A stretch of 64,000 nt of DNA from Martelella alba (lineage in GTDB: Bacteria; Pseudomonadota; Alphaproteobacteria; Rhizobiales; Rhizobiaceae): assembly GCF_006516955.1 (NCBI RefSeq), contig NZ_VHLG01000012.1, positions 124,001-188,000 of the forward strand. Direction: 5' to 3'. The notes beneath the pieces were generated by a model. The model saw nothing but the letters and a program-made list of their open reading frames with translations. It did no database searches and had not been told where the DNA came from. Shown here piece by piece: positions 24,076-42,754 of the stretch; positions within the stretch are counted from its first letter, which is position 1, and the number at the start of each line of letters is the position of its first letter. The position numbers were made by a program, and so were the translations under genes.

Positions 24076-24359
24076 CGTGAAAATTTCCCTACATGGACTT
24101 GAGCGCGGTCAAACCGTCATCTAAATCGATTGATATGATGTGTTGACTTGGAAATGACGGGTGAGCCGCATGCCCGATGCCGTTTGTTGTCAAACCTGGC
24201 CTTGCGTCCGGCGCCTTTTATTGCCAACAGTCATGCAACAAACATCACAGCGCGCTATCCATTGGATAGGGCGTTGCTGCTGTTGAAGCGGCCCGGGAGG
24301 CTCGCCGCGCCCGACCGTTCAAAATGGGTTTGCCGGCAAGAGATATGAAGGAAATCATC
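24076..24359 (+). other. Upstream region of transaldolase
   Basis: This 284-bp gap holds no gene. A perfect palindrome, CTATCC-ATT-GGATAG at 24255-24269, lies about 90 bp upstream of the transaldolase start and could be an operator. The sequence before it is moderately AT-rich (24100-24150). Confidence 0.35.
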
Positions 24360-25316
24360 ATGACCTCTAAACTTGACCAATTGCGCGAAATGACCACGGT
24401 TGTTGCCGATACCGGTGACATTGAAGCAGTTGCCCGGATCAAGCCGGTCGATTGCACCACCAATCCAAGCATTGTTCTGAAGGCGCTTTCGACCGAAATG
24501 TTCGCCGATGCCGTTGAAAGCGCGGTCAAGTGGGGCAAAAGCCAGGGCGGCGACAAGGAAGCCGTCATCGGCGCCGTCGCCAGCCGTCTGGCCATCGATG
24601 TCGGCGAAGCCCTCGTCAAGATCGTTCCCGGCCGCGTTTCGACCGAAGTTGACGCTGACCTGTCCTTCAATGTCGCGGCTTCGATCGACAAGGCGCATGA
24701 AATCATCGCCGCCTATGAAGCCCGCGGCATTACCCGCGACCGCATCCTGATCAAGCTTGCCTCCACCTGGGAAGGCATCCGCGCCTGCGAAGTGCTGCAG
24801 AAGGAAGGCATTGACTGCAATCTGACGCTGCTCTTCTCCAAATGCCAGGCCATTGCCTGCGCTGATGCCGGCGCTTTCCTGATCTCGCCCTTCGTCGGCC
24901 GCATCCTCGACTGGTACAAGAAGGACACCGGCGAAACCTACACGACCGAAACCGATCCGGGCGTGCTTTCCGTCCGTTCGATCTACAACTACTACAAGTC
25001 CAACGACATCAAGACCGTCGTCATGGGCGCTTCCTTCCGCAATATCGGCGAAATCGAAGGTCTGGCCGGTTGCGACCGCCTGACAATTGCGCCGAACCTT
25101 CTCGAAGAGCTCGCCAATGACCAGGGCGATCTGCCGCGCGTGCTGTCGCCGGAAAAGATTACCGACGAGCCCAAGATCGACATGGACGAAAAGACGTTCC
25201 GCTGGATGCTGAACGAGGATGCCATGGCCACCGAGAAGCTGGCTGAAGGTATCCGTAACTTCGCCAAGGACCTCGGCAAGCTGCGCACCATCGTTTCTGC
25301 CAAGCTTGATGCCTGA
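24360..25316 (+). CDS. tal: Transaldolase
   Basis: Transaldolase moves a dihydroxyacetone unit between sugar phosphates in the pentose phosphate pathway. The 318-residue protein is the classical TalA/TalB type: [12 protein letters not shown] near the N-terminus, the Schiff-base lysine in [13 protein letters not shown] (Lys134-135 region), NLTLLFS and [14 protein letters not shown] chose the ATG at 24360 ([12 protein letters not shown]) since GAAGGAAATC precedes it. An intrinsic terminator follows, so the gene is monocistronic. Confidence 0.96.
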
Positions 25317-25376: not shown

Positions 25377-25703
25377 ATGCGGGTCGTTCGGTTTTCGGCG
25401 AATTTTCACCCAATCTGATTTTTTTCAAACCCGGTCCGATCTTGTCAGGGCCTGTTGTTCATATCTTTGGCATATTGAAAATAAGTATTTAAAATCAATT
25501 ATATGGCGAGCATGCAGAGTCCGTGGGCGTGTGGCCACTGATCGTGCAATTGCTCATTTTTTCAGCGCAGTCACGAATTTTGTGAACAATGCGATTACAA
25601 TTTTCGACTTGTTAAGGCAGTTTTCCTTTCCTATTTAATCAATCGAACAAACAAACAAGTGCAGCGCGGCGCAAACCAAGGCTGCACACCCAAGGAGATG
25701 GAA
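25377..25703 (+). promoter_or_regulatory. AT-rich promoter region of the small exported protein array
   Basis: This 327-bp AT-rich stretch has no gene. The best promoter is TTGTTA (25609-25614), 17 bp, TATTTA (25632-25637), giving a start near 25644 and a leader of about 60 bases before the first array gene. A TCAC-N7-GTGA palindrome lies near 25570-25585. Confidence 0.55.
25659..25687 (+). promoter_or_regulatory. Leader hairpin of array gene 1
   Basis: GTGCAGC (25659-25665) pairs with GCTGCAC (25681-25687) around a 15-base loop. The stem ends directly before ACCCAAGGAG, the ribosome site of gene 1. Confidence 0.6.
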
Positions 25704-25943
25704 ATGACCAAGATTATTGCTTCGCTCGCCGTTGTCTCAAGCATTGCGCTTGCTCCGGCCGCTTTCGCCGCTCAGCCTGTTTCTCCGGTTGCCCCCGACG
25801 CCAGCCACCTGACCAAGTCGCCCGCTGGCAGCGTCGTCGAGATTTCCGGCCAGAACCAGTATGGCAACACGACTAACTACGTCTACAAGGTTCAGCAGGA
25901 CGGCTCGCTGAAGCTCGTCTTTGCGGCTCAGCAGAACGACTGA
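25704..25943 (+). CDS. Small exported protein, array copy 1 (unknown family)
   Basis: The 79-residue precursor has a signal peptide ending AFA, with likely cleavage before AQPV after residue 22. The mature 57 residues contain the array core LTKSPAGSVVEISGQNQYGN and KVQQDGSLKLV, ending AQQND. There are no cysteines and no recognised domain; the core reads as two or three beta strands. The ATG at 25704 has AAGGAG 8 bases upstream. It is first of five tandem relatives and is preceded by the only clear promoter of the set. Function unknown; export to the periplasm or outside is inferred from the signal peptide. Confidence 0.85.
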   Translation: MTKIIASLAVVSSIALAPAAFAAQPVSPVAPDASHLTKSPAGSVVEISGQNQYGNTTNYVYKVQQDGSLKLVFAAQQND

Positions 25944-25972
25944 TTGATCTTGTAACAAATTGGAACTCTAAT

Positions 25973-25999
25973 CGCTGTGCCCCGTTTTAAGGAACAGCG
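25973..25999 (+). promoter_or_regulatory. Leader hairpin of array gene 2
   Basis: CGCTGT (25973-25978) pairs with ACAGCG (25994-25999) around a 15-base loop, the same loop length as gene 1 but unrelated arm sequence. It ends 8 bases before AAGGAG (26008-26013). Confidence 0.55.
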
Positions 26000-26020
26000 A
26001 GGCAAATAAGGAGCATCATC

Positions 26021-26269
26021 ATGAAGAAGCTGATTGCATCCGCCGCATTTGCTGCTGCCCTTGTCGCAGCTCCGTTCGCCCTTGCCGCCCAGTCAGATAA
26101 CCCGGTGGCACCGGATGCGGCACATCTGACCAAATCGCCTCCGGGCAGTGTGGTCACGATCGTTGGCACGAACAAGGCTGGTAATGAGACCAATTTCTAC
26201 TATCGCGTCCAGCCAGACGGCTCGTTGAAGCTCATCTTCCAGGAAGCGATCAACGACAGCGACCGTTGA
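26021..26269 (+). CDS. Small exported protein, array copy 2 (divergent)
   Basis: The 82-residue precursor is the most diverged array member. A signal peptide (MKKLIASAAFAAALVAAPFALA) precedes AQSDNPVAPDAAHLTKSPPGS, then GTNKAGNETNFYYRV and QPDGSLKLIFQ, ending NDSDR. The spacing of the core to its relatives is unchanged, so the fold is probably the same; substitutions are concentrated in the signal peptide and the middle strand. AAGGAG lies 7 bases before the ATG. No function can be assigned. Confidence 0.85.
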   Translation: MKKLIASAAFAAALVAAPFALAAQSDNPVAPDAAHLTKSPPGSVVTIVGTNKAGNETNFYYRVQPDGSLKLIFQEAINDSDR

Positions 26270-26314
26270 TCTTGAGAGGCATTGAGCCTGCCAAAGATCC
26301 CGGTCGCAACGACA

Positions 26315-26350
26315 GCTCCCGATCAAGCCCCGGACACAGAGGGCGGGAGC
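26315..26350 (+). promoter_or_regulatory. Leader hairpin of array gene 3
   Basis: GCTCCC (26315-26320) pairs with GGGAGC (26345-26350). Inside, GCCC (26327-26330) pairs with GGGC (26341-26344), leaving a 6-base bulge and a 10-base loop. The stem abuts ACCCAAGGAG. Confidence 0.6.
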
Positions 26351-26367
26351 ACCCAAGGAGAGATAAA

Positions 26368-26616
26368 ATGAACATGAAGATTGTATCGGCCGCGCTTGCC
26401 GCTGGCCTTATCGCTGCCCCTGCCGCTTTTGCCGCCCAGCCGGTTGCTCCGGTTGCTCCGAATGCGACGCACCTGACCAAGTCCCCTGCCGGCAGCGTTG
26501 TTGAAATCACTGGCCAGAACCAGTTCGGCAATGAAACCAACTACGTCTACAAGGTCCAGCAGGACGGTTCGCTGAAGCTCGAGTTCCAGAACACGGTTGA
26601 AGACAGCGACAACTGA
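26368..26616 (+). CDS. Small exported protein, array copy 3
   Basis: The 82-residue precursor has a signal peptide MNMKIVSAALAAGLIAAPA (cleavage after AFA) and a mature part that is identical to array copy 4: AQPVAPVAPNATHLTKSPAG through KVQQDGSLKLEFQNTVEDSDN. The differences from copy 4 are confined to two signal peptide residues. Start codon ATG 26368 follows ACCCAAGGAG. Together with copy 4 it marks a recent duplication. Confidence 0.87.
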   Translation: MNMKIVSAALAAGLIAAPAAFAAQPVAPVAPNATHLTKSPAGSVVEITGQNQFGNETNYVYKVQQDGSLKLEFQNTVEDSDN

Positions 26617-26668
26617 TCGGCAATGGCGGAGTTCCGCCGGCCCTCAGTCCCGTCCAATAAAGATGAAG

Positions 26669-26704
26669 GCTCCCGATCAAACCCCGGTCACTGAGGGTGG
26701 GAGC
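26669..26704 (+). promoter_or_regulatory. Leader hairpin of array gene 4
   Basis: GCTCCC (26669-26674) pairs with GGGAGC (26699-26704), and ACCC (26681-26684) with GGGT (26695-26698). Relative to gene 3 the inner G-C pair has become A-T on both sides, a compensatory change. ACCCAAGGAG follows directly. Confidence 0.62.
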
Positions 26705-26721
26705 ACCCAAGGAGAAATACA

Positions 26722-26970
26722 ATGAACATGAAGATTGCTTCGGCCGCACTTGTTGCAGGCCTCATCGCCGCCCCTGCCGCTTTTGCCGCCCAGCCGGTTG
26801 CTCCGGTTGCCCCGAATGCGACGCACCTGACCAAATCCCCTGCCGGCAGCGTTGTTGAAATCACTGGCCAGAACCAGTTCGGCAATGAAACCAACTACGT
26901 CTACAAGGTCCAGCAGGACGGTTCGCTGAAGCTCGAGTTCCAGAACACGGTTGAAGACAGCGACAACTGA
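26722..26970 (+). CDS. Small exported protein, array copy 4
   Basis: The 82-residue precursor differs from copy 3 only at two signal-peptide positions (IASAALVAG for IVSAALAAG), and the mature protein is identical. The leader and first 100 bases are nearly identical to copy 5. It begins with ATG at 26722 after ACCCAAGGAG. The perfect conservation of the mature part, with silent changes nearby, suggests either very recent duplication or selection on the protein. Confidence 0.87.
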   Translation: MNMKIASAALVAGLIAAPAAFAAQPVAPVAPNATHLTKSPAGSVVEITGQNQFGNETNYVYKVQQDGSLKLEFQNTVEDSDN

Positions 26971-27022
26971 TCGGCAACGGCGGATTTCCGCCGGCCCTCA
27001 GTCCCGTCCAATAAAAATGAAG

Positions 27023-27058
27023 GCTCCCGATCAAACCCCGGTCACAGAGGGTGGGAGC
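27023..27058 (+). promoter_or_regulatory. Leader hairpin of array gene 5
   Basis: GCTCCC (27023-27028) pairs with GGGAGC (27053-27058), with the inner ACCC (27035-27038)/GGGT (27049-27052) pairs as in gene 4. ACCCAAGGAG follows. Confidence 0.6.
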
Positions 27059-27075
27059 ACCCAAGGAGAAATATC

Positions 27076-27306
27076 ATGAACATGAAGATTGCTTCGGCCG
27101 CACTCGTTGCCGGCCTCATCGCCGCCCCTGCCGCTTTCGCCGCTCAGCCGGTTGCTCCGAATGCAAGCCCGCTGACCAAGTCCCCCGCCGGCAGCGTCGT
27201 CGAGATCTCCGGTCAGAACCAGTATGGCAACACGACCAACTACGTCTACAAGGTGCAGCAGGACGGTTCTCTGAAGCTTGTCTACCAGGCTCAGCAGAAC
27301 GACTAA
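27076..27306 (+). CDS. Small exported protein, array copy 5 (mosaic)
   Basis: The 76-residue precursor is a hybrid. Its signal peptide and leader match copy 4, while its second half (EISGQNQYGNTTNYVYKVQQ, then LKLVYQAQQND) matches copy 1. Four residues of the repeated VAP linker are missing (AQPVAPNASPLTKS). The pattern suggests gene conversion or unequal crossing-over between the ends of the array. It is followed by a terminator, so it is the last member. Confidence 0.86.
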   Translation: MNMKIASAALVAGLIAAPAAFAAQPVAPNASPLTKSPAGSVVEISGQNQYGNTTNYVYKVQQDGSLKLVYQAQQND

Positions 27307-27371
27307 GAGATTGCATTGATCACTTGGCGGGCCACTGAACGTGCCGGTCCGCTGATTGATCCTTGGAAAAG

Positions 27372-27393
27372 GGCGGTTTGACGCCGCCTTTTT
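27372..27393 (+). terminator. Intrinsic terminator after the small protein array
   Basis: GGCGG (27372-27376) pairs with CCGCC (27384-27388), followed by five T. It lies 65 bp after array gene 5. Confidence 0.7.
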
Positions 27394-27407
27394 CATCTCC
27401 TGGGGAT

Positions 27408-27448: not shown

Positions 27449-29074
27449 CTATCGCGCCATTGAAAGCAGTGTTGCGACAAGCCCCTTGGTCGAGCTGTCG
27501 TGTCCGTCTGCCGTTTCGGTTCCCGAAACGACCGGCAGAAGCCCGGTTGCAAGCTCCTTGCCGAGTTCCACGCCCCACTGATCAAAGGAATTGATGTTGA
27601 ACAGCGCGCCTTCGACAAAGACACGATGTTCATAAAGCGCGATCAGGCGGCCAAGTGCGAAGGGCGTCAGGCTGTCATAGACAAAGGTGATTGACGGGCG
27701 GTTGCCGGAAAAGACCCGGTGCGGACCGATCTTGGCCGCCGTCGCCTCATCGGCGCCCTTGGCCAGAAGCTGGCCCTTGGCCTCTTCCAGCGAACGGCCC
27801 TTCATCAGTGCTTCTGACTGGGCCAGGCAATTGGCCATCAACAGCTGGTGCTGATGCCTGAGTTTCGGCTCGAAACCATTGGCAGCAATCATGAACTCGA
27901 TCGGGATGATATTGGTGCCCTGGTGCAGCAGCTGGAAGAAGGCGTGCTGGCCATTGGTTCCGGGCTCGCCCCAGACGATCGGGCCCGTCGGCGTCGTTAC
28001 ATCCTTGGAATCGATTGTCACCGACTTGCCGTTGGATTCCATGTCGAGCTGCTGCAGATAGGCGGCAAAGCGTGACAGGCGCTGATCATAGGGAATGACC
28101 GCGCGCGACGGATAGCCGAGCACGACCCGCTGGTAAAAGCCGAGAAGACCGAGCATGAAGGGCAGGTTCTCACGTGTCGGCGCGGTTCGGAAATGATTGT
28201 CCATCGCATGGGCGCCGTCGAGGAAGCCGAGGAAATCAGCCTTGCCGATGGCGATCATCAGCGGCAGGCCGATCGCCGACCAGATCGAGTAGCGCCCGCC
28301 GACCCAATCCCAGAAACCGAAGATCCGGTCTTCGGCGATGCCGAAGGCGGCGACCTTGTCGAGTGCCGTTGAAACGGCAGCAAAATGGGCGCCGACAGCC
28401 TCTTCACCCAGCGCATCGGCAATGAAGGCACGCGCCGTCCCGGCGTTGGTCATTGTCTCGATTGTGGTGAAGGTCTTGGAGGCCACGATGAACAGGGTCG
28501 TCGCCGGATCGAGTTCCTTGATCGTGTCGGCGATATGGGCGCCGTCAACATTGGATACGTAATGGAGCTTCGGGCCATCATGGAAAGGCGCCAGCGCCAG
28601 CGTCGTCATGGCGGGGCCGAGATCGGAGCCGCCAATGCCGATATTGACGACGTCGGTGAAAGCCTTGCCGGTCGCACCGGTCAGCGCGCCCGAGCGGATC
28701 GCCTCGGCAAAGACGCCCATGGCGTCGAGTACGGCATTGACATCCGGCATGACATCGGCGCCATCGACCAGAACCGGCGTGTTGGAGCGGTTGCGCAGCG
28801 CGGTGTGCAGAACGGCACGGTCCTCGGTCAGGTTGATTTTCTCGCCGGCAAACATCGCCGCACGCTTCTCGGTAACACCGGCCTTGTCGGCGAGCGTCTC
28901 CAGAAGTGCGAGGATCTCGTCATTGACCGCCGATTTGGAGAAGTCCATCACCAGATCGTCAAAACGGATGCTGTAGCGCGAAAACCGGCCGGGATCAGTT
29001 GCAAAGGCGGCGCGCAGGTCGGTCGCGCCGGTCTTTTCGGCGGCCGTCTTTAGCTCTTGAATGATTGCGTCCAT
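27449..29074 (-). CDS. pgi: Glucose-6-phosphate isomerase
   Basis: Pgi interconverts glucose 6-phosphate and fructose 6-phosphate. The 541-residue protein has both family signatures: [16 protein letters not shown] and the later [18 protein letters not shown], the catalytic glutamate block [18 protein letters not shown], and the C-terminal [14 protein letters not shown]. Length is normal for the long bacterial form. It is followed by a strong hairpin and shares no operon with neighbours. Confidence 0.97.
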
Positions 29075-42499: not shown

Positions 42500-42520
42500 G
42501 GCCCGCCACTGGCGGGCCTT
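42500..42520 (+). terminator. Intrinsic terminator after nrdF
   Basis: GGCCCGCC (42500-42507) and GGCGGGCC (42511-42518) form a perfect stem around ACT, followed by only two T, then CTGTTTG. The same hairpin occurs again at 42732. Confidence 0.6.
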
Positions 42521-42642
42521 CTGTTTGTTGACGAACCTCACCCCCTTCACTGACATCATGCCTGTGCTTGGTCCACAGGTATCCAGTCAACGCGCGTCTG
42601 TGCGAAGAAAAAACTGTTTATTCAATGCCTTATGAAACTGGA

Positions 42643-42663
42643 TCCCCGTGACAAGCACGGGGA
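42643..42663. repeat. Short intergenic palindrome
   Basis: TCCCCGTG (42643-42650) and CACGGGGA (42656-42663) flank ACAAG. This form of palindrome within GGAT...ATGACG is common between genes in alphaproteobacterial genomes and is probably a dispersed repeat rather than a terminator. Confidence 0.55.
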
Positions 42664-42731
42664 TGACGACGGAGGGGGAGGCTATTCCACCTCAAACAAG
42701 CGATCTGAATGGCTTTGTCAGCAGTCTGAAG

Positions 42732-42754
42732 GCCCGCCACTGGCGGGCTTTTTT
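42732..42754 (+). terminator. Second copy of the GCCCGCC hairpin, with T run
   Basis: GCCCGCC (42732-42738), ACT, GGCGGGC (42742-42748), then six T: a complete intrinsic terminator. The 17-base core repeats the one after nrdF, 232 bp upstream. Confidence 0.7.

Follow-up and report, generated by a model that had tools for sequence, protein, structure and literature searches.

A tandem array of genes for small exported proteins in Martelella alba and its relationship to small lipoproteins of the Rhizobiaceae

The locus described here raises the question of why Martelella alba carries, within the 64,000-nucleotide stretch of DNA that was analysed (the window), five consecutive genes for one kind of small exported protein, what that protein is related to, and what the repetition of its gene might serve. 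The preliminary description had reported five tandem genes encoding 76–82-residue precursors with signal peptides, and this is confirmed, with all five on the forward strand. They lie between two genes that, from their sequences, we take to be transaldolase-like and glucose-6-phosphate isomerase-like, and the features of the region are as follows.

24324..25316, + strand, upstream neighbour, presumed transaldolase-like gene
25609..25637, + strand, candidate promoter TTGTTA - 17 nt - TATTTA, proposed by inspection and absent from the consensus-scan list
25659..25687, + strand, leader hairpin immediately before the Shine-Dalgarno sequence of gene 1 (RNA fold)
25704..25943, + strand, gene 1, 79-residue precursor
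25973..25999, + strand, hairpin CGCTGT...ACAGCG upstream of gene 2 (z -0.9, no better than shuffles)
26021..26269, + strand, gene 2, 82-residue precursor, the most divergent copy
26315..26350, + strand, hairpin GCTCCC...GGGAGC upstream of gene 3 (z -2.6)
26368..26616, + strand, gene 3, 82-residue precursor, within the 354 bp repeat unit
26669..26704, + strand, hairpin GCTCCC...GGGAGC upstream of gene 4 (z -1.5)
26722..26970, + strand, gene 4, 82-residue precursor, mature part the same as that of gene 3
27023..27058, + strand, hairpin GCTCCC...GGGAGC upstream of gene 5 (z -1.2)
27076..27306, + strand, gene 5, 76-residue precursor, mature part close to that of gene 1
27366..27394, + strand, intrinsic-terminator-like hairpin followed by a T run (RNA fold)
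27449..29074, - strand, downstream neighbour, presumed glucose-6-phosphate isomerase-like gene

The starts of genes 1 to 5 are separated by 317, 347, 354 and 354 bp, in agreement with the exact 354 bp interval first noted for genes 3, 4 and 5, and Tandem Repeats Finder reports a period of 354 with 2.7 copies and 91 % matches. Between the precursors of genes 3 and 4 (P0003 and P0004) the sole differences are at residues 6 and 11; because both positions fall within the signal peptide, the mature products are identical, as had been claimed, provided that cleavage follows AFA, a site proposed from signal peptides (ending in AFA or ALA) that were judged by eye. The mature parts of the five proteins share the segments LTKSPxGSVVxIxG and YxVQxDGSLKL, and, with a curli-like functional amyloid in mind, we note that glutamine and asparagine are abundant in the window copies, less so in most other Martelella copies when the alignment is read. 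A cysteine after residue 20 is found in none of the 63 members from Martelella loci, which upholds the earlier remark that the family lacks this residue. The window array encodes four distinct mature proteins and that of another genome of the genus (G007) six, so some specialisation among copies is possible.

Nor did a recognised domain emerge, again as first described, since no displayed Pfam or NCBIfam score reached its curated cut-off, examples being Tox-HDC (17 versus 21 bits) and BRANT (21.5 versus 44). The whole-alignment scans of these libraries give scores for the first member and E-values alone for the others, among which the best are T7SS_ESX1_EccB (3e-5, 2/121), BRANT (3.6e-4, 4/40), the LPAM_1 lipid attachment site (4.2e-4, 5/121) and midcut_by_XrtH (7e-4, 5/40). 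An AlphaFold2 model built from 121 family sequences (mean pLDDT 73.3, pTM 0.53) has a disordered N-terminus followed by a three-stranded meander, with strands at residues 22–28, 34–41 and 47–54 of the 60-residue mature part and block means of 84–88, and an earlier model from 40 sequences agrees with it. Foldseek found no match in the PDB at E ≤ 0.001, and the fold is thus predicted to be a small beta sheet to which no relative can be assigned; profile and structure searches together yielded no confident match to a characterised family. Designed propeller proteins in the PDB (best E 1e-9, with one protein) were considered and set aside, since the match covers one beta hairpin and is absent from the profile searches.

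The family was matched in all 13 genomes of the genus that were searched, with at least two tandem copies at each main array, and an iterative profile collected the 63 members from the window and 21 fetched loci, 22 sources in all. The main arrays hold five copies in the window's own genome (G000; 4.99 Mb, 55 contigs), three in G001, five in G002, three each in G003, G004 and G005, four in G006, six in G007, four in G008, three each in G009 and G010, five in G011 and two in G012, where the counts for G002, G006 and G008 each include one degenerate end copy. Copy number thus varies from 2 to 6 among related genomes, and because tandem copies are present in every one of the 13, the array is not an artefact of assembly, an objection that the preliminary description had itself raised. 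In the three arrays with a degenerate last copy (L042 9474, L046 8204 and L048 6401) that copy keeps its signal peptide and has lost the mature core, and those of G006 and G008 are alike. By tblastn the transaldolase-like gene adjoins the array in 12 of the 13 genomes, the window's included, and the isomerase-like gene lies near it in 7; neither was found by tblastn in the stretch fetched from G001.

The window's genome holds further copies, namely an array of three (C48), an array of two (C33) and, both diverged, a pair (C44) and a single gene (C11); the C48 and C33 arrays are recent copies of each other (94 % identity over 761 bp). A strongly diverged second tandem pair, with starts 463–465 bp apart, is present in both G000 and G011.

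L039, 7882-8121 and 8336-8584, diverged pair of the family
L052, 7568-7807 and 8024-8272, diverged pair of the family

We also note a dispersed element, some 250 bp long and bearing inverted ends, presumably a RIME/ABC-like element of the Rhizobiales, which occurs in the window (42513-42736), in L037 (9241-9515), in L040 (8608-8821) and three times in L038 (8583-8820, 9593-9856 and 13541-13789), with copies 78–85 % identical to that of L037. It adjoins both the C48 and the C33 array, in whose copying it may have had a part.

The repeats show clear signs of concerted evolution outside the coding sequences. The spacers between genes 3 and 4 and between genes 4 and 5 are 94 % identical to each other within G000 and 97 % within its sister genome G011, but only 75–80 % identical between the two genomes, and the repeat period is 354 bp in the one and 348 bp in the other; because they are alike within a genome and less so between genomes, these spacers evolve in concert. 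The spacer between genes 1 and 2 is 97 % identical between the genomes, and genes 1 and 2 themselves look like ordinary orthologues, at 98 and 94 % identity. Homogenisation of the coding parts is a weak signal, less clear than in the spacers: genes 3 and 4 are 96 % identical within G000 and gene 3 is 97 % identical between G000 and G011, and gene 5 of G000 is 77–80 % like genes 3 and 4 of the same genome and 93 % like gene 5 of G011. Replacement changes are few. Within the mature part synonymous changes outnumber them in all six pairs counted (gene 5 left out), with synonymous to replacement counts between G000 and G011 of 4:0 for gene 1, 7:2 for gene 2, 3:2 for gene 3 and 7:1 for gene 4, and the family core is kept across the genus.

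Codon usage gives an indirect indication of expression. Codon adaptation is 0.726–0.760 for genes 3–5 and the C48 and C33 copies, 0.662 for gene 1 and 0.612 for gene 2, against 0.653–0.782 for nine ribosomal reference genes (values that include themselves) and a mean of 0.558 (sd 0.084, maximum 0.747) for 81 background ORFs of at least 200 residues, which were chosen by length so that some may not be genes. Values as high as those of genes 3–5 are also reached by 5.8–8.4 % of 75-codon stretches drawn at random from the background. Within the measured set, namely the window array (C55) together with those of C48 and C33, and leaving aside the C44 and C11 genes, 8 of 10 genes have ribosomal-protein-like codon usage, a pattern that would suggest high expression.

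Signals that might govern such expression surround and punctuate the array. The candidate promoter is favoured because CTTGTT stands at the matching place in G011 and in most other main arrays; the consensus scan gave instead TTGGCA-17-TAAAAT at 25467-25495 and a weaker overlapping site. The terminator previously suggested at the array end is supported as a terminator-like hairpin with a 12-pair stem (-18.5 kcal/mol, z -4.04), which a simple terminator scan had missed. The leader (25639-25703) folds at -15.7 kcal/mol (z -1.87), with 11 of 200 shuffles equal or better, and covariation of its hairpin over nine first genes amounts to one pair only, a level reached by 114 of 500 shuffles. Before the Shine-Dalgarno sequences of internal array genes, hairpins are more stable than dinucleotide shuffles (mean z -1.73, versus -0.46 for 91 script-picked control genes), with z below -2 for 16 of 39 array genes and 4 of 91 controls, although a count of at least six pairs near the Shine-Dalgarno sequence shows no excess (28/39 versus 74/123 intergenic controls, p 0.13); the hairpins are a possible mRNA-stability element. 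When the leaders of the first genes of L042, L043, L044, L045, L046, L048, L049, L050 and L051 are aligned, the 3′ arm of the leader hairpin, GATGA, is seen to have an alternative potential partner, TCATC, close to the start codon; such pairing would place the Shine-Dalgarno sequence in a loop and could constitute a translational switch. Rfam returned three matches (E 0.11–0.48), all far below their gathering scores, and there is no tRNA in the window.

A dyad element, CTTGTTRRTCRNNYGATTAAA, is present at the promoters of most Martelella arrays, with 17 exact matches in 11 of the 13 genomes, every one at a main array; it occurs twice per array, the second time inside it, in G001, G003, G004, G005, G009 and G010. 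The single promoter and single regulated unit suggested in the preliminary description may therefore be regarded as a possibility only. Allowing two mismatches adds seven matches, one of them adjoining the G012 array, and none within this limit was found in G000 or G011. This distribution would point to no wider regulon, and words of the element found nothing relevant among the literature matches listed. The published site of the MarR regulator LdtR, given as ATATTCCTTGTATTTTAA in the portion of PMC5481520 consulted, was compared by eye and is unlike the array promoters, so membership of the LdtR regulon was rejected; the CenR site appears in excerpts of PMC9275681 as TGA-N8-TGA.

What, then, is the protein related to? 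The preliminary description had presented the family as unrecognised, and this picture has to be corrected, in that the family does not stand alone: profile searches reveal a wider one in the Rhizobiaceae. Of 199 genomes sampled from the bacterial family, 41 were matched by a Martelella profile at E ≤ 0.001, some through the signal peptide alone, and most of the other matches have a lipobox and the core EPIPGSITYGGQPRTKLTKSPVGS...ETYxIQPDRSLKL. The core of the wider family, a small Rhizobiaceae lipoprotein, can be written PGSITYGGQPRTKLTKSPVGS...ETYxIQPDRSLKL, and a core profile, A4 (25 rows, two from the window), matched 57 of 297 genomes in the family sample, representing 22 of 109 genera, at E ≤ 1e-5. 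The window copies match A4 with a best E of 1.5e-17 (two of its rows being their own), and in the opposite direction profiles made from Martelella alone find the lipoproteins. In samples which, like that of the family, are draws from larger groups, the core was matched in 5 of 297 genomes of the order, all Rhizobiaceae, and in 1 of 289 of the class at E ≤ 1e-4, the window's own genome; none of the sampled order and class genomes outside the Rhizobiaceae has it. In a plasmid collection 158 records match one of the lipoproteins, and the tally consists of Rhizobiaceae genus names throughout. Reading of the rows shows that no listed Martelella member has a lipobox, and because the core is present and the lipobox cysteine is missing, the Martelella copies are classed as homologues and not as lipoproteins. 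Judged by sequence, the Martelella family would be a branch, without lipobox, of a wider Rhizobiaceae family whose fetched members are mostly lipoproteins.

The state of the lipobox can be set beside the size of arrays. Among 88 non-Martelella members in the fetched loci, which cover part of the places matched by A4 and were counted with script-chosen start codons after removal of overlapping-locus repeats within a genome, 62 have a lipobox by regular expression and 26 do not. Ten of the 62 stand in pairs, in Sinorhizobium meliloti and in four genomes of one Sinorhizobium-looking genus, and none is in an array of three or more, whereas 9 of the 26 are in arrays, of four in G073 and five in G534. 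Arrays of at least three in the fetched loci are thus confined to members without a lipobox, in three genera (Martelella, g62 and g107). In a midpoint-rooted and poorly resolved tree of the 58-column core, with 21 of 135 inner branches starred as well supported, the arrays fall in separate places, that of G073 (92), the G534 group (99, starred) and the clade of the Martelella array (81, open). Among the rows without lipobox the array label needs six changes, of which starred branches force three, and the lipobox label needs eight on the best tree, of which they force one. It is conceivable, if somewhat doubtful, that on more than one occasion a minor lipoprotein became, through lack of the anchor, a soluble envelope protein made in bulk, and that tandem amplification and concerted evolution followed. 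The single forced lipobox change and the midpoint rooting of the tree count against such repeated switching, and the array label requires at least three changes.

With some hesitation, and at a little less than an even chance, we favour the view that tandem duplication has raised the dosage of an abundant soluble protein of the envelope, either periplasmic or secreted. The product, predicted to consist of a signal peptide, a short linker that is disordered and a beta meander of three strands and about 40 residues, is homologous to the Rhizobiaceae lipoprotein and lacks its lipid anchor. It would probably work as an abundant envelope component, periplasmic or secreted, and unequal crossing over or gene conversion would act on the repeats. 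The computations establish the tandem copies, the homology, the missing lipobox, the concerted evolution of spacers, the small number of replacements and the high codon adaptation of most copies; high expression, the location, the selection of dosage as a trait and this route of recombination we infer. The preliminary description had offered dosage need or recombination-driven variation as reasons for copy-number amplification of a small exported protein. Tandem amplification itself is supported, and the homogenised spacers and genes 3–4 and the ribosomal-like codon usage of most copies moderately favour dosage over variation driven by recombination. Against this reading weigh the distinct mature proteins within each array, the only partial homogenisation of the coding sequences, the lower adaptation of genes 1 and 2 and the share of background stretches that match genes 3–5 in codon adaptation.

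The several distinct mature proteins per array, together with export of the products, differences in copy number between species, the strong divergence of gene 2 and the unlikeness of gene 5 to genes 3 and 4, might instead describe a diversifying set of secreted factors for antagonism, competition or host contact, with recombination creating the variants. We consider this unlikely: within a genome the spacers and genes 3–4 have become alike, replacements are outnumbered by synonymous changes in each of the six pairs counted, the core persists throughout the genus, and neither PADLOC nor PHROGs gave a match at E ≤ 0.01 for the 25 core sequences scanned. Unequal crossing over might also have duplicated the genes in a near-neutral way, with no selection for dosage, which would fit copy numbers spanning 2 to 6, arrays ending in degenerate copies and recently copied arrays such as C48 and C33. 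This seems improbable, as all 13 genomes have at least two copies, arrays occur also in two other genera on different branches, and codon adaptation is high in most copies.

More doubtful still is the idea of a small periplasmic inhibitor or adhesin with a known beta fold that escaped the sequence searches. There is a weak structural likeness to the cystatin 7pk4 (probability 0.82, E 0.51), and the biofilm adhesin 6xi3 matches the core profile with a whole-sequence E of 1.3e-6, but no single repeat of the adhesin passes, such repeats score -3.3 to 7.8 bits with the A2 profile, Foldseek has nothing at E ≤ 0.001 and only three strands are predicted. Among these readings, the abundant envelope protein with raised dosage is the one that we retain.

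Five peptide words of the family have no occurrence in the literature text searched, and nothing on the family was seen among the matches listed for Martelella genomes or, as judged from the listed records, for Martelella salt transcriptomics, small tandem lipoproteins and lipoprotein concerted evolution. Two S. meliloti proteins invite comparison. SMb21440, a hypothetical protein with a signal peptide whose gene is bound by ChvI and induced by acid, according to the parts of PMC2651895, PMC8343143 and PMC3687685 consulted, resembles the family in being exported; it is by name a pSymB gene, and because pSymB of strain 1021 has no match to profile A4 it is not a member by this test. LppA (SMc00067) is likewise a short envelope lipoprotein of the Rhizobiales, and acts on ExoR-ExoS-ChvI, but its length of 148 residues and the alpha helix predicted for it, both given in the consulted part of PMC10659215, set it apart.

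The closest known relatives are the Rhizobiaceae lipoproteins themselves, which include a tandem pair in S. meliloti Ak57 (LZK74_26965 and LZK74_26970), both annotated as hypothetical proteins. We note that the record carrying the pair, CP090106.1 (L110), is titled pSymB of this strain, although at 3.72 Mb it is chromosome-sized and pSymB of strain 1021 lacks a match; the title is probably wrong. Like the window proteins, the lipoproteins are exported, of similar size, and have the K(A/S)PxGS turn, Y-x-(V/I) and D-x-S-L; they differ in their lipobox cysteine and fuller PGSITYGGQPRTKL segment and, unlike the Martelella copies, never stand three or more in a row in the loci fetched. The comparison defines a Rhizobiaceae protein family that has no name in the profile libraries searched and offers a compact, testable example of an exported bacterial protein whose gene has been amplified in tandem recurrently; if abundant, the Martelella proteins would be unstudied components of the envelope with lipoprotein relatives in Sinorhizobium and Rhizobium.
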